A stretch of DNA of 64,000 nucleotides from Streptomyces antibioticus (GTDB taxonomy: Bacteria > Actinomycetota > Actinomycetes > Streptomycetales > Streptomycetaceae), in assembly GCF_001514065.1 (NCBI RefSeq), contig NZ_KQ948426.1, positions 1-64,000 of the forward strand. Direction: 5' to 3'. This document shows, one piece after another, positions 10,097-55,796 of this stretch. The translations under genes and the position numbers were made by a program. Under the pieces are notes generated by a model. The model saw nothing but the letters and a program-made list of their open reading frames with translations. It was not told the DNA's origin and ran no database searches. Each line of letters opens with the position of its first letter. Position 1 is the first letter of the stretch.

Positions 10097-11950
10097 TCAG
10101 CCCAGCTTCGACACGTCCCGCACCGCGCCCTTGTCCGCGCTCGTCGCCATCGCCGCGTAGGCCTTCAGCGCCGCGGAGACCTTGCGCTCGCGGTTCTTCG
10201 GGACGTACGCCCCGCCCAGCGCCTGCTCGCGGCGGGCCAGTTCGGCGTCGTCGACCAGGAGGTCGATCGTGCGGCCCGGGATGTCGATGCGGATGCGGTC
10301 GCCGTCCTCGACGAGGGCGATCGTGCCGCCCGCGGCGGCCTCCGGGGAGGCGTGGCCGATGGACAGACCCGAGGTGCCGCCGGAGAAGCGGCCGTCGGTG
10401 ACGAGCGCGCAGGCCTTGCCGAGGCCGCGGCCCTTCAGGTACGAGGTCGGGTAGAGCATCTCCTGCATGCCCGGGCCGCCCTTGGGGCCCTCGTAGCGGA
10501 TGACCACCACGTCGCCCTCCTTGATCTCCTTCAGGAGGATCTTCTGGACGGCCTCCTCCTGGGACTCGCAGACGACCGCGGGGCCTTCGAAGGTCCAGAT
10601 GGACTCGTCGACGCCGGCCGTCTTCACGACGCAGCCGTCGACCGCCAGGTTGCCCTTGAGGACCGCCAGGCCGCCGTCCTTGGAGTACGCGTGCTCGGCG
10701 GACCGGATGCAGCCGCCCTCCGCGTCCTCGTCCAGGGCCTCCCAGCGCTCCGACTGGGAGAAGGCCTCGGCGGAGCGGACGCAGCCGGGGGCCGCGTGCC
10801 ACAGTTCCACCGCGTCGGCCGACGGGGAGCCGCCGCGGACGTCCCACGTCTTCAGCCAGTCCGCGAGCGACGGGCTGTGGACCGAGTGGACGTCCTCGTT
10901 GAGCAGGCCCGCGCGGTGCAGCTCGCCGAGCAGCGCCGGGATGCCGCCCGCGCGGTGCACGTCCTCCATGTAGTACGTGCGGTTCTTCGCGACGTTGGGG
11001 GCGACCTTCGCGAGGCAGGGGACCCGGCGGGAGACCGCGTCGATCTCGTTCAGGCCGAAGGGGACCTCCGCCTCCTGGGCGGCGGCCAGCAGGTGCAGGA
11101 TCGTGTTGGTCGAGCCGCCCATGGCGATGTCGAGCGCCATCGCGTTCTCGAAGGCCGCGAAGGAGGCGATCGAGCGCGGCAGGACCGTCTCGTCGTCCTG
11201 CTCGTAGTAGCGCCGGGTGATGTCCATGACCGTGCGGGCCGCGTCCTCGTACAGGCGGCGGCGGGCCGTGTGGGTGGCCAGGACCGAGCCGTTGCCGGGG
11301 AGGGAGAGGCCGATGGCCTCGGTCAGGCAGTTCATCGAGTTGGCGGTGAACATGCCGGAACAGGAGCCGCAGGTCGGACAGGCGTTCTCCTCGATACGGA
11401 GGATGTCCTCGTCCGAGATCTTGTCGTTCACGGCGTCGGAGATCGCGTCGACCAGGTCGAGCGTGCGGACCGTGCCGTCCACCAGGGTGGCGCGGCCGGA
11501 CTCCATCGGGCCGCCGGAGACGAAGACCGTCGGGATGTTCAGCCGCAGGGCCGCGTTGAGCATGCCCGGCGTGATCTTGTCGCAGTTGGAGATGCAGATC
11601 AGGGCGTCGGCGCAGTGGGCCTCGACCATGTACTCGACCGAGTCCGCGATCAGGTCGCGGGAGGGGAGGGAGTACAGCATGCCGCCGTGGCCCATCGCGA
11701 TGCCGTCGTCGACCGCGATGGTGTTGAACTCGCGCGGGATGCCGCCCGCCTCGCGGATCGCCTCGGAGACGATCCGGCCGACCGGCTGGAGGTGGGTGTG
11801 GCCCGGCACGAACTCGGTGAAGGAGTTCGCGACGGCGATGATCGGCTTGCGGCCGATGTCCGCACCGGGTACACCGGAGGCGCGCATAAGGGCGCGTGCG
11901 CCCGCCATGTTGCGGCCGTGGGTGACTGTGCGGGACCTCAGCTCGGGCAT
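10097..11950 (-). CDS. ilvD: Dihydroxy-acid dehydratase
   Basis: Iron-sulfur enzyme of 617 aa making the 2-oxo acid precursors of valine, leucine and isoleucine. Cluster and Mg-site motifs are present: [35 protein letters not shown], and the C-terminal [14 protein letters not shown]. The length fits the E. coli-type enzyme. It is monocistronic. About 75 bases upstream, GTCC (12023-12026) and GGAC (12035-12038) bracket GGAATGCG, a weak dyad that might be an operator for a branched-chain amino acid regulator; this is inference. Confidence 0.96.
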
Positions 11951-12051
11951 CGTCGCTCGCTCCTTCAGACAGTTGTGGCTGCTATCGAGCGTACGCCGGT
12001 CATCCAGGGGGCGGGACGAGGTGTCCGGAATGCGGGACGCACATCTCGCGC

Positions 12052-12660
12052 TCAGGGCCCGGTCAGGTGTCCCTGCACCACCGGCGCCACCCGCGCGATG
12101 ATCTGCTCGACGTCCGCCGACGCCAGCGGCTCCACCTTGATCACGTACCGCAGCATCGCGATCCCGACCAGCTGTGCGGCCGCCAGCTCGGCGCGCAGCT
12201 CCGCGTCCGGGGCGTCGAGCTCGCCGGCGATGCGGCGCAGCAGCTGGGTGGAGACGAGGCGGCGGAAGACGGTGGCCGCGGCCTCGTTGTTCACCGCCGA
12301 GCGGACGATCGCGAGCAGCGGCGTGCGGGTCACCGGGTTCTCCCAGAGCCCGAAGATGACGTGGGTCATCCGCTCGCCGATGTCCTCCACCGGCCCTTCG
12401 AGCGCCGTGTCCTGCTCGGTCAGCGCCGGCGCGAAGGCCACCTCCACGGCCGCCTCGAAGACCTGCTCCTTGGTGCCGAAGTAGTGGTGGACCAGGGCCG
12501 AGTCGACCCCGGCGGCCTTCGCGATGCCGCGCACCGACGTCTTCTCGTACCCCCGCTCGGAGAACTCCTCGCGGGCGGCGGCCAGGATGCGGTCGCGGGT
12601 GTCGGCCGATTCCGTACGAGGAGGCCGGCCCCGCTTGCGTGCGGTGACGCCGTCGGTCAC
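12052..12660 (-). CDS. TetR-family transcriptional regulator
   Basis: A 202-aa regulator. The N-terminal helix-turn-helix is [51 protein letters not shown] with the classic TetR spacing; the C-terminal ligand domain resembles TetR_C_33-type members. Its start overlaps the stop of the upstream TIM-barrel gene (ATGA at 12657-12660), so the two are co-translated. The likely target is its own operon; the ligand is unknown. Confidence 0.88.
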
Positions 12661-13484
12661 GGCAGCCTCTGGGCCTTCACGGCCGACGCCAGATGGAGGC
12701 GGGTGAACGCCAGTGCCTCCGCGAGGTCGGCCTCACGTTCGGCGCTGGACATCGCCCGCCGGGTGTTGACCTCGATGACGACATGACCGTCGAAGCCGCT
12801 GAGGGCGAGACGTTCCAGCAGCTCGGCGCAGGGCTGGTTGCCGCGGCCGGGGACGAGGTGCTCGTCCTTCGCGGAGCCGCGCCCGTCGGCGAGGTGGACA
12901 TGGCCGAGGCGGTCGCCCATGCGGTCGACCATCTCCATCGCGTCGATGCGGGCCGTCGCGGAATGGCTGAGGTCGATCGTGAAGTGCCGGTAGTCCTCTT
13001 TGGTGACGTCCCAGTCGGGGGCGTACGCGAGCATCTCGCGGTCGCGGTAACGCCACGGGTACATGTTCTCGACGGCGAACCGCACGTCCGTCTCGCTCGC
13101 CATCCGCCAGATCCCCTCGACGAAGTCGCGGGCGTACTGCCGTTGCCAGCGGAAGGGAGGGTGGACGACGACGGTGCTCGCGCCGAGCTTCTCGGCGGCG
13201 GCCTGGGCGCGCTGGAGCTTGACCCAGGGGTCCGTCGACCACACGCGCTGCGTGATGAGCAGGCAGGGGGCGTGCACGGCGAGGATCGGGATCTGGTGGT
13301 AGTCGCTCAGTCTGCGCAGGGCTTCCATGTCCTGGCTGACGGGGTCGGTCCACACCATGACCTCGACGCCGTCGTAGCCGAGGCGTGCGGCGATCTCGAA
13401 GGCCGTCGCCGTCGACTCCGGGTACACGGAGGCCGTGGAGAGCGCCACCTTCGCGTCCGGGATCCGTACGACTGGTTCTGCCAC
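12657..13484 (-). CDS. Sugar phosphate isomerase/epimerase-type TIM barrel (AP endonuclease 2 superfamily)
   Basis: A 275-aa protein with the xylose-isomerase-like TIM-barrel layout. Metal-binding acidic and His residues appear in order: [42 protein letters not shown] and VVIEVNT. The substrate is unknown; members include inosose dehydratases, hydroxypyruvate isomerases and endonuclease IV-like proteins. It is the first gene of a two-gene unit with the TetR regulator. Confidence 0.78.
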
Positions 13485-49664: not shown

Positions 49665-50336
49665 TCAGCCGTGCCCGCCGGCCCGGACCAGCCCCGTCTC
49701 GTAGGCCAGGACGACCACCTGCACCCGGTCCCTGAGTCCCAGCTTGGTCAGGATGCGGCCCACGTGGGTCTTCACGGTCGCCTCGGACAGGACCAGCCGG
49801 GCCGCGATCTCGCCGTTGGACAGGCCCTGGGCGACCAGCACCATGACCTCGCGCTCGCGGTCGGTGAGCCGCTCCAGCTCCTTGTGCTGGGGCTCCTTGC
49901 CGGTGCTCGGCAGCATCGGCGCGAACCGGTCGAGGAGACGGCGCGTGGTCGAGGGCGCCACCACCGCGTCCCCGCTGTGCACCGCGCGGATCGCGGCGAG
50001 CAGCTCGCCGGGCGGCACATCCTTGAGCATGAAGCCGGACGCGCCCGCCTTCAGCCCGGAGAAGGCGTACTCGTCGAGGTCGAAGGTGGTCAGGATGAGC
50101 ACCTTCGGCGGGTTCTCCTCCTGGCAGATGCGGCGGGTCGTCTCCACCCCGTCCAGCTTCGGCATGCGCACGTCCATCAGCACCACGTCGACGGTCGTGG
50201 CCCGCAGCACCTGGAGTGCCTCGACGCCGTCGCCCGCCTCCGCGACGACCTCCATGTCCGGCTGGGCGGCGAGCACCATCCGGAACCCGGTGCGCAGCAG
50301 CACCTGGTCGTCGACGAGCATCACGCGGATCGTCAT
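49665..50336 (-). CDS. NarL/LuxR-type response regulator
   Basis: A 223-aa regulator. The receiver has DD at 9-10, phospho-acceptor Asp in VVLMDVRMPK and Lys in MLKDVPPGE. The C-terminal LuxR HTH is LTDREREVMVLVAQGLSNGEIAARLVLSEATVKTHVGRILTKLGL. GAGG lies six bases before the ATG at 50336. It is 83 bases downstream of its histidine kinase, in the same direction, forming a two-component system of unknown signal. Confidence 0.93.
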   Translation of the reverse strand: MTIRVMLVDDQVLLRTGFRMVLAAQPDMEVVAEAGDGVEALQVLRATTVDVVLMDVRMPKLDGVETTRRICQEENPPKVLILTTFDLDEYAFSGLKAGASGFMLKDVPPGELLAAIRAVHSGDAVVAPSTTRRLLDRFAPMLPSTGKEPQHKELERLTDREREVMVLVAQGLSNGEIAARLVLSEATVKTHVGRILTKLGLRDRVQVVVLAYETGLVRAGGHG

Positions 50337-50419
50337 CGGGGCCTCTTCCGTCTCTCTACGACTCATCTGGTTGCGTCGGCAAGGGTGTTACAGGTGTCAA
50401 CAGGGGGCGTGCGTCGGCG

Positions 50420-51622
50420 TCAGTGCACCGGTTTGAGCGGGAGCAGCGCGCTGATACGGAATCCTCCGCCCGGACGTGGTCCCGCATCCAGGGTGCCGCC
50501 GACCATACCGACGCGCTCGCGCATCCCGATCAGACCGTGTCCCTGGCCGTCCGCGCCGCCGTCCTCGTACAGCTCGTGCGGGGCGCCCTTGCCGTCGTCC
50601 TCGACGAGCAGGCCGAGCCCGTCGTCGAAGTACACCAGGCGCACGCTCGCGCCCGCGTTGGGCCCGCCGTGCTTGCGGGTGTTGGTGAGCGCCTCCTGCA
50701 CGATGCGGTACGCCGTCAGCTCGACGCCGCTGGGCAGCGGGCGCGGGGTGCCCTCCACCTTGAAGTCGACGGGCAGGCCGGAGGTGCGGCACTGCTCGAC
50801 CAGGTCGTCGATCTGCTCGACGTCGGGCTGCGGGACGTACTCCCCGACCTCCTGGTGCTCGCCGGTGCGCAGCACGCCCAGCAGGCGGCGCATCTCGGCG
50901 AGGGCCTGCCGGCCGGTGGAGGAGATCGTCTCCAGGGCCTTCTTCGCCTGGTCGGGCGCGGCGTCGAGGACGTACGCGGCACCGTCGGCCTGCACGACCA
51001 TCACCGAGACGTTGTGCGCGACCACGTCGTGGAGCTCGCGCGCGATGCGGGCGCGCTCGGCGGCGACCGCGACCTTCGCCTGCGCCTCGCGCTCCTTCTC
51101 CAGGCGGCTCGCGCGCTCCTCCAGCTGCGCGAAGTAGGCGCGACGGGTGCGCATCGAGTCGCCGAGCACCCAGGCCAGCGCGAACGGCACCGTCTGGAAG
51201 ACGATCAGCGCCGCGTTGGCCAGGGCGCTCGCGTCGTGGTTCCACCACCGCAGATGCGCCACGCACGCCGCGCTCAGGCCCGTGGCGAGCGCGAGCCGGG
51301 ACGCCCAGCGGGCGCCGGTCGCGGCGACGGTGTAGACGATGACCAGGAACGCGAAGTCACCCGGCGTCGTGGGCACGTCCGCCAGCAGTTGGGCGACGCC
51401 GATGCCGACGGCCAGGAGCAGCATCTTCTCCGGCATGCGCCGGCGCAGCGCGATCACCAGGCACAACAGGAGGACGATCGGGATGACCGCGGCCTCTGAG
51501 TCCGTCCCCTCGTCCGACTGCTCGGCGACTTCGAACACGACCGAGATCCCGAAAAGGAAGACGGCCCAGAAGGCGTCGACCCATGTCGGGTGCCTGCGGA
51601 GGAAGTCATAGAGGCGCTGCAC
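50420..51622 (-). CDS. Sensor histidine kinase, HisKA_3 type
   Basis: A 400-aa membrane kinase. Four or five membrane spans occupy about 15-165 (including VIPIVLLLCLVIAL and FQTVPFALAWVLG), with almost no extracellular loop, so it likely senses the membrane itself. A coiled linker with EERASRLEKEREAQAK follows. The H-box is ARELHDVVAHNVSVMVVQ, the N-box EALTNTRKHGG, and the end GHGLIGMRERVGMVGGTL. GTG start. It is divergent from the MidA-type gene with 118 bases between. Confidence 0.92.
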   Translation of the reverse strand: MQRLYDFLRRHPTWVDAFWAVFLFGISVVFEVAEQSDEGTDSEAAVIPIVLLLCLVIALRRRMPEKMLLLAVGIGVAQLLADVPTTPGDFAFLVIVYTVAATGARWASRLALATGLSAACVAHLRWWNHDASALANAALIVFQTVPFALAWVLGDSMRTRRAYFAQLEERASRLEKEREAQAKVAVAAERARIARELHDVVAHNVSVMVVQADGAAYVLDAAPDQAKKALETISSTGRQALAEMRRLLGVLRTGEHQEVGEYVPQPDVEQIDDLVEQCRTSGLPVDFKVEGTPRPLPSGVELTAYRIVQEALTNTRKHGGPNAGASVRLVYFDDGLGLLVEDDGKGAPHELYEDGGADGQGHGLIGMRERVGMVGGTLDAGPRPGGGFRISALLPLKPVH

Positions 51623-51740: not shown

Positions 51741-52805
51741 GTGACGGACGGGACAGCGGAGGAGTGGCGCGGCTGGCGGGCGGCGACGCAGGCCGCCCTG
51801 TACGGCCCTGACGGCTTCTACCGCCGCCCGGAGGGCCCGGCGGGTCACTTCCGTACGTCCGTCCACGCGTCGCCGCTGTTCGCCGAGGCCGTGGCCCGGC
51901 TGCTGTGCCGGGTCGACGAGGCCCTGGGCCGGCCCCCGGCGCTCGACTTCGTCGACATGGCGGCGGGCCGGGGCGAGCTGGTCACCGGGGTCCTCGCCGC
52001 GCTGCCCGCGGACGTCGCGGCCCGCACGCGCGCGTACGCCGTCGAGCTCGCCGACCGGCCGCCCGGCCTCGACCACCGGATCGAGTGGCTGCCCAAGCCC
52101 CCGCGCGGGATCACCGGCCTGCTGTTCGCCAACGAGTGGCTCGACAACGTGCCGGTGGAGATCGCCGAGGTGGACCCCGCGGGGATCGCGCGCCGGGTGC
52201 TCGTACGAGGGGACGGGGCCGAGCGGCTCGGGGAGCCGCTGGCCGGCGCGGAGGCGGAGTGGCTCGCGCGCTGGTGGCCGCTGCCGGCCGAGGCGGGGCT
52301 ACGGGCGGAGGTCGGGCTGCCCCGGGACGAGGCGTGGGCCGACGCGGTTGCGGCGGTGGCGCGGGGGCTCGCGGTGGCGGTCGACTACGCGCACACCGCG
52401 GACGCGCGCCCCCTGTTCGGGACGCTCACCGGGTTTCGCGCGGGGCGCGAGACGGCGCCCGTGCCGGACGGGTCGTGCGACATCACGGCGCACGTCGCGC
52501 TGGACGCCGCGCTGGGCGCCGCGCTGGAGGCGTGCGGCGTGCCCGGGGGGCGCCTGCTGACACAACGCGCCGCCCTGCACGCCTTGGGGATCGCGGGCGC
52601 ACGCCCCCCGCTCGCACTCGCCACCACACAACCCGCGGCCTACGTACGCGCCCTCGCGAGCGCCGGCGAAGCCGCCGAACTCACCGCACCCGGCGGCCTC
52701 GGCGACTTCGGCTGGCTGTTGCAACCGGTCGGCATCGAGAGCACGTCCCTGGGCGGACTGCTTGGCGGACTACTTGTCGATGTCCCCGACCACGAAGAAC
52801 AGTGA
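51741..52805 (+). CDS. MidA/NDUFAF7-type SAM-dependent methyltransferase
   Basis: A 354-aa protein of the family that includes NDUFAF7, the arginine methyltransferase of complex I subunit NDUFS2. Visible are [30 protein letters not shown] at the start, the SAM loop [14 protein letters not shown] (about 73-86), [15 protein letters not shown] (the family N-E-x-x-D-x-x-P block), and VDYAHT. The GTG lies six bases after TAGTCT (51729-51734), a leaderless arrangement. Its last 36 bases overlap the convergent nuoD gene, whose product is the NDUFS2 homologue. Confidence 0.82.
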
Positions 52806-53921
52806 CCCCAGGATCGCCACCATGTCGGCGACCAGCGTCCCCGGCAGCAGCTCCACCAGCGCCTGGATGTTGTTGTACGACGCCGAGCGCAGCTTGAGGC
52901 GGTACGGCGTCTTCTCGCCCTTGCTGACGAGGTAGTAGCCGTTGATGCCGAGGGGGTTCTCGGTCCAGGCGTAGGTGTGGCCCTCGGGCGCCTTCAGGAC
53001 CTTCGGGAGCCGCTGGTTGATCGGGCCGGGCTCCAGCCCGGCGAGCCGGTCGAGGCAGGCGTCGGCGAGGTCGAGGGAGTTGTGGGTCTGCTCCAGGAGG
53101 ACCTCGAAGCGGGCCAGGCAGTCGCCCTCGGTCCGGGTGGCGACCTTCAGGGTGTCCTGGAGTTCGCCGTAGGCGAGATAGGGCTCGTCGCGGCGCAGGT
53201 CGAAGTCGACGCCGGAGGCGCGCGCGATGGGCCCGCTCACGCCGTACGCGTGCACGGTCTGCGGCGCGAGCGCGCCCACGCCCCGCGTGCGCCCCCGGAA
53301 GATCTCGTTGCCGAGCACCAGGTCGTCGTACACGTCCATGCGCGAGCGCACGGCGGCGACGGCGGCACGCGCGCGTCCCGCCCAGCCGGCGGGGAGGTCC
53401 TCCTTGAGGCCGCCGACGCGGTTGAACATGTAGTGCATGCGCCCGCCGGAGACCTCCTCCATGACGTTCTGGAGGACCTCGCGCTCCCGGAACGCGTAGA
53501 AGACCGGGGTGATGCCGCCGAGCTCCAGCGGGTACGAGCCGAGGAACATCAGGTGGTTGAGCACCCGGTTGAGCTCGGCGAGGAGTGTGCGCGTCCACAC
53601 CGCGCGCGGGGGCACCTCCATGCCCAGCATGCGCTCGACGGCGAGGACCACGCCCAGCTCGTTGGAGAAGGCCGACAGCCAGTCGTGGCGGTTGGCGAGC
53701 ATGATGATCTGGCGGTAGTCGCGCGCCTCGAAAAGCTTCTCCGCGCCGCGGTGCATATAGCCGATCACCGGCTCCGCGTGCTGGATCCGCTCGCCGTCCA
53801 GGACGAGCCTGAGACGCAGCACACCGTGCGTCGACGGGTGCTGGGGCCCGATGTTGAGCACCATGTCCGTGCTCTCCGCGGCGCCGCCGATACCGACCGT
53901 GGTCTCCGTCGTGGGAGTCAT
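52770..53921 (-). CDS. nuoD: Solitary NuoD-like subunit of NADH-quinone oxidoreductase
   Basis: A 383-aa homologue of the 49-kDa subunit. [22 protein letters not shown] (His32 kept), [11 protein letters not shown] with Arg58, [45 protein letters not shown] and the end [13 protein letters not shown] are family blocks. DRxDY, whose Tyr binds quinone in complex I, reads NRHDW here (Trp81). No other nuo gene is in the window, so this is the extra nuoD2-type copy. AGGAGAG precedes the ATG by 11 bases. Confidence 0.92.
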
Positions 53922-53940
53922 GGACACAGTCTCTCCTACG

Positions 53941-53946
53941 TACGCT
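53941..53946 (+). promoter_or_regulatory. Leaderless -10 box of the PH-domain operon
   Basis: TACGCT is followed by six bases and the ATG at 53953. It lies in the 31-base gap to the divergent nuoD start, so the two promoters must overlap. Confidence 0.4.
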
Positions 53947-53952
53947 GGCCCT

Positions 53953-54456
53953 ATGGAGACGGGGAGCGGGCAGGACACGGAGTCTGTGGCGGGTGAGCCG
54001 GTGTGGATCGGGCTGCCCCCGGGGCTGCTGCGGATGCGACGGCTGTTGCTGGTGGTGTGGCTGGGGCTGATCGCCCTCGCGCTGGGTGGGCTGCTCTGGC
54101 TGTTCGCCGGGCCCGCCTGGGCCGCGATCGCGCTGCTGCCGGTCGCCGCCATCGCCTGGGGGTGGGTGATGCTCGGCCGCAACTGGGCCTCCTGGCGCTA
54201 CGCCGAGCGCGCGGACGACCTGCTGATCAGCCGGGGCGTGCTGTGGCGCGAGGAGACGGTCGTGCCGTACGGGCGGATGCAGCTCGTCGAGGTCACCTCC
54301 GGCCCCGTGGAGCGGCACTTCGGGCTCGCCAGCGTCCAGCTGCACACGGCCGCCGCCGCGACCGACGCGACCATCCCCGGCCTCGATCCGGCCGAGGCGG
54401 AACGGCTGCGCGACCGGCTCACCGAGCTCGGCGAGGCCCGATCGGCGGGCCTGTGA
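53953..54456 (+). CDS. Membrane protein with bacterial PH domain (bPH2)
   Basis: A 167-aa protein. Two spans (about 28-66) precede a single bPH2 domain: [45 protein letters not shown] is the characteristic core. It resembles the YdbS half of the YdbS/YdbT pair. Its stop overlaps the GTG of the next gene (GTGA at 54453-54456), so the two are made together. Members are thought to be membrane scaffolds linked to envelope integrity or bacteriocin tolerance. Confidence 0.85.
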
Positions 54457-55796
54457 CGACGCCGGGCCTCGACGACGGCATGCCCGAGCTGCGGGCGAAG
54501 CAGCCGGTGACCGAGCGGCGGCTGCACCCCGTGACGCCGCTCAGGCGGGCGTGGGCGCCTGTCGCGGTGCTCATCGGCTGGGCGGTGCACGACCCCGACC
54601 AGGCACAGCGCCAGCTGACCCGGCTGACCACCACGACCCTGCTGATAGCGCTCGCCGTGCTGGTTCCGGCCGCCGCCCTCTACGGCTTCCTCACCTGGTG
54701 GTACACCCACTTCGCGGTCACCGAGTCCGAACTGCGCATCCGTACCGGGCTGGTGTTCCGGCGCGCCGTGCACATCCGGCTGGAACGCATCCAGGCCGTC
54801 GACGTCACCCAGCCGCTCCTCGCGCGCGTGGCGGGCGTCGCCAAGCTGAAACTCGACGTCATAGGCGCCGACAAGAAGGACGAGCTCGCCTTCCTCGGGG
54901 AGCGCGAGGCGCGTGCGCTGCGCGCGGAACTCCTCGCGCGCGCCGCCGGGTTCGCACCCGAGACGGCGCACGAAGTCGGCGAAGCGCCGGCGCGCGAGCT
55001 GCTGCGCACGCCCCCGCGTGACCTCGCGATCGCCCTCGTGCTCACGGGCGCCACCTGGGGCGCGCTGGTCGCCGCCCTCGTCGTACCGCCCGTCCTGTGG
55101 TTCGCCACCCACAGCCTGTGGACGGTCCTCGCGACCGGCGTGCCCCTGCTCGGCGCGGCGGGCGCAAGCAGCGTGGGGCGATTCGTCGGCGAGTACGACT
55201 GGACCGTGGGCGAGTCGCCCGACGGGCTGCGGATCGACCACGGCCTCCTGGACCGCACGCACGAGACGGTCCCGCCGGGGCGGGTGCAGACCGTGCGGAT
55301 CGTGGAGCCGCTGCTGTGGCGGCGGCGCGGCTGGGTGCGGGTGGAGCTGGACGTGGCCGGGTCGTCCAACTCGGTGCTGGTGCCCGTCGCTCCGCGCGCG
55401 CTCGCCGAGGCGGTCGTCGCGCGGGTGCTGCCCGGGGTGACCGTGCCGCCGCCGGACGCCCTGTCCCGGCCGCCGCGGCGCGCGGGGCGGTGCGTGCCAC
55501 TGTGGTGGCGCGGGTACGGACTCGCCGTCACCGACGCGGTGTTCGCGTCCCGGGAGGGACTCCTCAGCCGCAGCCTCGCGCTGGTCCCGCACGCCAAGGT
55601 GCAGAGCGTACGGCTCGTGCAAGGGCCCTGGCAGCGCCTGTGGCGGCTCGCCGACGTCCATGTGGACACGGGGGCCGGCAAGACCGTCACGGCCCGCCTG
55701 CGGGACGCGGAGGAGGCCGCCGGCCTGCTCCGCTCGCAGGCCGAACGCTCCCGCACGGGACGCCGCGATGCACTCCCGGACCGCTGGATGGCCTGA
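54453..55796 (+). CDS. Membrane protein with repeated bacterial PH domains (YdbT-like)
   Basis: A 447-aa partner of the preceding gene. Span pairs near 60-80 and 190-225 alternate with bPH2-type domains: ELRIRTGLVFRRAVHIRLERIQAVDVTQPLLARVAGVAKLKLDV, then GLRIDHGLLDRTHETVPPGRVQTVRIVEPLLWRRRGWVRVELDV, then VFASREGLLSRSLALVPHAKVQSVRLVQGPWQRLWRLADVHVDT. Three copies of one module are clear. The coupled start supports a heteromeric membrane complex. The exact role is unknown. Confidence 0.86.
   Translation: MTTPGLDDGMPELRAKQPVTERRLHPVTPLRRAWAPVAVLIGWAVHDPDQAQRQLTRLTTTTLLIALAVLVPAAALYGFLTWWYTHFAVTESELRIRTGLVFRRAVHIRLERIQAVDVTQPLLARVAGVAKLKLDVIGADKKDELAFLGEREARALRAELLARAAGFAPETAHEVGEAPARELLRTPPRDLAIALVLTGATWGALVAALVVPPVLWFATHSLWTVLATGVPLLGAAGASSVGRFVGEYDWTVGESPDGLRIDHGLLDRTHETVPPGRVQTVRIVEPLLWRRRGWVRVELDVAGSSNSVLVPVAPRALAEAVVARVLPGVTVPPPDALSRPPRRAGRCVPLWWRGYGLAVTDAVFASREGLLSRSLALVPHAKVQSVRLVQGPWQRLWRLADVHVDTGAGKTVTARLRDAEEAAGLLRSQAERSRTGRRDALPDRWMA

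Follow-up and report, generated by a model that had tools for sequence, protein, structure and literature searches.

Among the closest described counterparts of the gene pair reported here is the methyltransferase NDUFAF7 (MidA) with Arg85 of NDUFS2 in human and Dictyostelium, and the dimethylated arginine, which lies beside cluster N2 of complex I, is required for assembly of the complex in human cells (PMC3829151). The modified arginine is already known in one bacterium, Paracoccus denitrificans (PMC3750175, PMC8042128), as dimethyl-Arg65 of Nqo4 (PMC3750175, PMC11522691), and according to the accessible part of PMC11522691 the mark has not been reported in other bacteria. At this position Thermus carries Thr on NuoD, the space being taken by an arginine (R83) of Nqo6, an arrangement described as an intersubunit switch relative to the arginine of Yarrowia (PMC8042128). 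Streptomycetes possess a second nuo set (nuoA2, B2, D2 and H2 to N2), which has been reported to be without N-module genes and to have its nuoD2 sited apart from the nuo2 operon (PMC8388888, PMC3765725). Here, we analysed a stretch of 64,000 nucleotides from Streptomyces antibioticus (contig NZ_KQ948426.1, positions 1 to 64,000; hereafter the window), in which a gene for a putative methyltransferase of the MidA/NDUFAF7 family adjoins nuoD2, the gene for the NuoD subunit of this second complex I (complex I-2). The methyltransferase probably methylates Arg58 of NuoD2 and would then be an arginine methyltransferase specific to this subunit of complex I-2, and a working link of some kind between the protein and complex I-2 is very likely.

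The locus resembles the NDUFAF7/MidA system in the PF02636-type sequence, fold and motifs of the enzyme, and in having the HRGxEK-type arginine of NuoD/NDUFS2 as the likely target. It differs in that the enzyme is bacterial and comes from outside the proteobacteria, that its gene is linked to the gene of its likely substrate, and that it could serve only the second NuoD here, the main NuoD having Thr. With Paracoccus it shares a bacterial complex I bearing that arginine, but the Streptomyces case concerns a second, separate complex I. The same alternatives as in Yarrowia and Thermus, Arg-NuoD with Thr-NuoB or Thr-NuoD with Arg-NuoB, which have been described between species (PMC8042128), are both found in one Streptomyces genome. 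As for the published second nuo set, the nuoD2 of the window fits its D subunit, including the detached place (PMC8388888, PMC3765725); in the accessible parts of these two accounts of nuo2, we found no mention of a methyltransferase, of an Arg/Thr difference between the two NuoD or of Trp at the quinone site. No description of the methyltransferase-nuoD2 pairing was found in the accessible portions of the open PMC literature, which does not prove it unpublished.

The methyltransferase gene (51741..52805, + strand; GTG start, 354 aa) matched the PF02636 profile Methyltransf_28 with 62.5 bits (cut-off 23.3), the one PF02636 match in the genome, and its closest named relatives, up to 89% identical, are from Streptomyces (the label of 79 of the best 80 of at least 570). 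An AlphaFold2 model was built from a 22-sequence alignment (pLDDT 89.7, pTM 0.89) and compared with the PDB. The results showed that the top six fold matches were all PF02636-type chains (4g67, 4f3n, 1zkd A and B, 5ztz and 5zu0; TM 0.69-0.74), two of which, 5ztz (query-normalised TM 0.73) and 5zu0, are Dictyostelium MidA, and that TM dropped to 0.32 at the first chain from outside the family. The 22-sequence profile matched three PDB sequences (E up to 0.001), one of them named 'Protein arginine methyltransferase NDUFAF7 homolog, mitochondrial'. Because of the PF02636 match, the MidA-type fold and the match to an NDUFAF7 homologue, assignment to the MidA/NDUFAF7 family, as judged from sequence and predicted fold, is sound. 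Glu132 and Asp135 of the conserved motif A-N-E-W-L-D-N-V-P (52128..52154, + strand), which align to E and D of 4f3n, 1zkd and 5ztz, were invariant in 22/22 aligned sequences, as were D215, Y216, D247 and Q275, likewise present in these three structures; T249 is replaced by Ser in MidA 5ztz. These shared motifs putatively have an active-site role.

On the other strand, nuoD2 (52770..53921, − strand; ATG start, 383 aa) encodes a protein that is 36% identical to the main NuoD, and its frame stays open upstream to a TTG at 54182. The third-codon G+C content is 0.92 for the methyltransferase open reading frame (ORF) and 0.97 for the NuoD ORF, and both appear to be coding. NuoD2 matched PF00346 (Complex1_49kDa) with 236.3 bits (cut-off 24) and passed the NuoD equivalog profile NF004739 (376.5 over a cut-off of 360), and it stayed below the cut-off of the NuoD equivalog TIGR01962 (384.8 bits vs. 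459.35), which characterizes it, by sequence, as a divergent NuoD. In alignments, its Arg58 (codon 53748..53750, − strand), in YMHRGAEK, corresponds to bovine NDUFS2 Arg85 and Yarrowia Arg121 and to a Thr of the main NuoD, and GYMHRGAEK was kept in 80/80 of the nearest named loci. Both ORFs, their 36-base overlap and this arginine had been pointed out in the earlier note, and all of them were confirmed.

The alignment also placed Trp81 of NuoD2 (codon 53679..53681, − strand) at the position of Tyr87 of Thermus Nqo4, a conserved residue that hydrogen-bonds quinone and is essential for activity (PMC7434922). Counted over alignment rows that include repeated loci, the window row and an E. coli row, Trp occupies this position in 90/92 GYMHR rows, and Tyr in 87/87 Thr-type rows and 49/49 other Arg-type rows. 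His32 of NuoD2, equivalent to quinone-site His38 in Thermus numbering, is kept (His in 227/228 rows, the remaining row having a gap). By sequence family the protein is a NuoD, but one with an altered quinone site, and with Trp81 in place of Tyr87 complex I-2 probably departs from classical complex I here too. The recurrence of Trp throughout the GYMHR-type rows suggests that the quinone site of complex I-2 may be unusual.

To place nuoD2 in its genome (G000; 10.1 Mb, 29 contigs), we located the nuo genes other than nuoA, which was left out of the probes. Two NuoD genes were found with PF00346, one on contig C3 and nuoD2 on C5, as well as two NuoH genes, both on C3. The main nuo stretch around the first NuoH (L126, which ends before N) contains B, C, D, E, F, G and H to M, and the stretch around the second NuoH (L127) contains B, C and H to N, with no D among the probed genes. 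From the sequence, nuoD2 fills the missing D of this second set, and it is not an unexplained orphan because the L127 cluster has no D. The earlier note had described a lone NuoD outside the main complex I operon; the gene is indeed isolated in position, but it belongs to the second nuo set and fits the D-less nuo2 cluster, in keeping with the published accounts (PMC8388888, PMC3765725). No methyltransferase was found in the L127 stretch with the rest of nuo2; the methyltransferase adjoins nuoD2 instead. We also observed that in L127 (G000:C3), at about 11539-13434 on the − strand, the NuoC2 frame continues as several hundred repetitive residues rich in Gly, Ser, Pro and Ala up to nuoH2; this putatively coding tail, in which third-codon G+C is lower, occupies the slot held by nuoD2 in other lineages.

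The two NuoD proteins of this genome differ at the position in question, the main NuoD (NuoD1) reading GYLHTGIEK and NuoD2 GYMHRGAEK in the alignments. Since the main NuoD has Thr, NuoD2 is the sole candidate for Arg85-type methylation in the genome. A reciprocal split was found in NuoB: R76 of NuoB1 falls at the position of Nqo6 R83, as deduced from equal offset-7 ranges in the alignment table, and the corresponding residue of NuoB2 is a Thr that aligns with the Thr of mammals. As read from these alignments, S. antibioticus holds both sides of the intersubunit arginine switch. Among neighbouring NuoB/NuoD pairs, counted once per genome and type in the loci read, NuoD of the Arg/Trp type (residues at the Arg58 and Tyr87 positions) had a Thr NuoB in 33/33 cases and Thr/Tyr NuoD an Arg NuoB in 23/23, and the neighbours of Arg/Tyr NuoD were six Thr NuoB and one Trp NuoB. 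Both Thr-type and Arg-type NuoD were read in 48 sample genomes; exceptions to the rule of one Thr and one Arg were G043 and G186, with two Arg-type NuoD, and G038, with two Thr-type.

The linkage of the two genes was then analysed at increasing distance. In the 80 nearest named loci, which are close kin by selection (79 labelled Streptomyces, one 'Actinobacteria bacterium OK074'), the methyltransferase adjoins nuoD2 tail to tail in 80/80, with a spacing that ranges from 139 bases apart to a 36-base overlap. The family sample comprised 150 Streptomycetaceae genomes under 17 genus labels, that of S. antibioticus included. The methyltransferase was present in 149 of them, and NuoD2, by NuoD2-profile score, also in 149 (as partial matches in G249, G343 and G376). 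The sole family genome without the methyltransferase, G259, has NuoD scores only at the main-NuoD level and hence no NuoD2, and it has one NuoH, compared with two in G000, G249 and G368. The methyltransferase, NuoD2 and the second NuoH were thus lost together in G259, with the main NuoD and NuoH kept, which is a single event. Places for both genes were listed for 148/150 genomes (G259 has neither gene, and the weak methyltransferase match of G368 was not listed). The two genes shared a contig in 145/148 and were on different contigs in G254, G376 and G379, and the distance between the profile matches was at most 300 bases in 103, at most 1.5 kb in 117 and at most 10 kb in 144 of the 148 genomes. 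The orientation in the 145 same-contig genomes was tandem with the methyltransferase upstream in 115, tandem in reverse in 1, convergent in 22 and divergent in 7. The convergent layout of the window is therefore a minority, and the kept feature is the nearness of the methyltransferase and nuoD2.

The tail-to-tail overlap itself (52770..52805) was taken by the earlier note as a meaningful physical link. It was judged incidental because the 36-base overlap is present in only 29 of the 80 nearest loci, and convergent order was likewise rejected as a meaningful feature (22/145).

The phylum sample consisted of 246 genomes, 76 with PF02636 and 221 with PF00346; same-contig pairs were chosen by hand from the places listed, and 70 of the 76 methyltransferase genomes entered the second place listing. 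Measured between profile matches and with S. antibioticus included, the methyltransferase and an Arg-type NuoD were at most 26 kb apart on one contig in 40 of the 76 genomes, at most 10 kb in 37 and at most 1.5 kb in 17. By a crude estimate, a distance of up to 10 kb would arise by chance with a probability of 0.008 if the genome is 2.5 Mb long, a figure on which a binomial test is too strong given kinship. The linkage of methyltransferase and nuoD2 is far beyond chance. Two layouts prevailed among the loci read, which had been selected for being linked. In 11 loci (L089-L094, L096, L097, L099-L101), the nuo2 run closes with the methyltransferase, which comes directly behind nuoN2 among the probed genes and shares its strand. 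In 24 others (L064-L085, L087, L088), the stretch read contains no nuo2 gene besides nuoD2, and the methyltransferase is nearby; in L071 it was located by the PF02636 and profile searches only; L085 has F- and G-like frames too. The presence of a D-less nuo2 cluster elsewhere in the genome was established for S. antibioticus alone. Of the remaining loci, L086 is a short contig bearing C, D and the methyltransferase, which lies several kb past the nuo2 run in L095/L103 and L098 and beyond the stretch read in L102.

Co-occurrence was assessed in the 167 of 221 PF00346 genomes in which the NuoD motif was read, a non-random set that favoured genomes having the methyltransferase, a second NuoD or a good main NuoD, and from which distant hydrogenase-like PF00346 matches were mostly left out. 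Methyltransferase genomes without a NuoD reading were G064, G127, G178, G234 and G242, and unparsed rows were those of G231, G179, G034 and G059. The methyltransferase was found in 69/130 genomes with an Arg-type NuoD vs. 2/37 with the Thr type only (Fisher p 4e-8, kinship ignored), and, conversely, an Arg-type NuoD was present in 69/71 of the methyltransferase genomes read. The Arg-type genomes comprised 88 with Arg/Trp NuoD, 62 of which have the methyltransferase, and 42 with Arg/Tyr only, 7 of which do. The trend persisted by family label, with the methyltransferase in 20/25 Arg/Trp, 5/10 Arg/Tyr and 1/11 Thr-only families, and when its presence was mapped onto the NuoD2 tree (88 Arg/Trp sequences), 7 changes were required vs. 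a shuffled mean of 22.7.

Several observations weigh against an enzyme dedicated to Arg58. The genomes are related, and the counts are not independent. No PF02636 match was found in 61/130 Arg-type genomes, including 26/88 of the Arg/Trp type, where the arginine is retained, and Arg was found in 29/29 NuoD2 motifs from genomes without PF02636 (parsed from 30 loci, L191 ending before the motif). The retention of the arginine without the methyltransferase implies that it has another job too and that the complex evidently can dispense with the enzyme, and Arg58 conservation was rejected as proof of methylation. Moreover, G092 and G208 have PF02636 with only a Thr-type NuoD found and a single NuoH, and therefore some PF02636 members have another role or are relics. 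No linkage was found among the matches listed in 36/76 methyltransferase genomes of the phylum; in many of these draft assemblies the two genes are on separate contigs. Two detached NuoD2 genes, L133 (G224) and L136 (G149), had no methyltransferase in the 12 kb read; one is present elsewhere in both genomes. From the literature, the accessible parts of the sources state that the equivalent arginine of E. coli is not dimethylated (PMC8042128) and that a Wolbachia MidA methylates DNA in E. coli (PMC12455994).

A hidden, divergent methyltransferase was sought with the 22-sequence profile in 46 genomes, 45 without PF02636 and G062, which has one; among the 45, a strong match was obtained in G022 alone, where it was in pieces, and weak matches (E 2.6e-6 to 5.4e-4) in three others. 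In many genomes this search scored 44 of a larger set of first-look candidates, and some assemblies were incomplete. In G022, the methyltransferase and NuoD2 are both in pieces and close together (C1:1406110-1407091 and C1:1408757-1409364), representing either a decayed pair or assembly errors.

Based on the family, fold, linkage, co-occurrence, one co-loss, Arg/Thr split and reciprocal NuoB split computed here, we propose that the gene encodes a protein arginine methyltransferase of the MidA/NDUFAF7 type whose dedicated substrate is NuoD2. As the 49-kDa subunit, NuoD2 belongs to complex I-2, a second complex I whose gene set is without the NADH module. The enzyme would most likely dimethylate Arg58, a residue adjacent to cluster N2, on freshly synthesised NuoD2 before or while this subunit joins NuoB2, and the product is predicted to be symmetric dimethylarginine, with a putative role in the assembly or tuning of N2. 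The main complex I, having the Thermus-type swap (Thr on NuoD1, Arg on NuoB1), can offer no substrate at this position. The enzyme-substrate pairing suggested in the earlier note has thus gained strong contextual support from the linkage, the co-loss and the Thr of the main NuoD, but its argument from Arg58 alone is weak, because NuoD2 of methyltransferase-free genomes also has Arg (29/29). The methyl mark might further serve as a paralogue tag that commits NuoD2, rather than NuoD1, to NuoB2 and to complex I-2 with its altered quinone site, an extension that we regard as speculative and decidedly unlikely; if true, two parallel complexes would be sorted in assembly by a residue swap and one dedicated methyltransferase.

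The protein could also serve complex I-2 by another route, either by methylating that complex at some other residue or on another subunit, or as a binding-only assembly factor of NuoD2. The association with the nuo2 set as a whole is consistent with this, as the gene can follow nuoN2 and is absent where the second NuoH is absent, and so is the persistence of Arg58 without the enzyme, which means that the enzyme does not explain the conservation of Arg58. However, the family motifs are invariant in 22/22 aligned sequences, which argues against a binding-only role, characterised relatives are reported to act on exactly this arginine (PMC3829151, PMC9006661), and in S. antibioticus the methyltransferase adjoins D2, with none found in the stretch holding the other nuo2 genes. 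We consider such a route unlikely.

The two genes might instead be old neighbours that were never separated, the enzyme acting elsewhere in the cell. Close relatives share a neighbourhood by descent, G092 and G208 possess PF02636 with no Arg-type NuoD found, and nearly half of the phylum methyltransferase genomes (36/76) are without linkage among the matches listed. Simple inheritance of gene order is nonetheless very unlikely as the explanation, since the two genes stay close although their orientation and spacing vary (22 convergent, 115 + 1 tandem and 7 divergent of 145), the two layouts, closing a nuo2 run or forming a detached pair, occur in different lineages, and the enzyme is missing where, in a single family genome, complex I-2 was lost and the main NuoD and NuoH were retained. 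Regulation through the overlap, with antisense transcripts of the tail-to-tail genes controlling each other, would have a parallel in the antisense RNAs published for other nuo genes of Streptomyces (PMC3765725, PMC8388888), but the overlap occurs in 29/80 nearest loci and the convergent order in 22/145 family genomes, and we consider this explanation extremely improbable.

If the dedicated NuoD2 methyltransferase proposed here is correct, Streptomyces would offer a natural experiment, in which one genome combines two complexes I, the first of the Thr type and the second of the Arg type, with the enzyme apparently tied to the second. The methyltransferase could be deleted with the main complex I as an internal control. 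The role of the methyl groups, as opposed to the arginine itself, is a question that Streptomyces could address; the mutants of PMC8042128, in its accessible part, permit no conclusion on methylation as such.

Apart from these results, residue 60 of NuoD2, two positions after Arg58, is Phe in 23/26 Arg/Trp genomes without the methyltransferase and in 2/62 with it. On the tree, six independent pairs compared Phe60 with the methyltransferase, of which two went the same way, none the other way and four showed no difference (p 0.5); the pattern mostly follows the history of the clades, G036 standing apart from it. Phe60 as a substitute for methylation was accordingly rejected and remains a lead. 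As for the surroundings of the pair in the window, genes judged by eye to be response regulator-like and sensor histidine kinase-like lie on one side (49665-51622, − strand). On the far side of nuoD2, two membrane protein-like frames, also judged by eye, are directed away from it (53851-55796, + strand).
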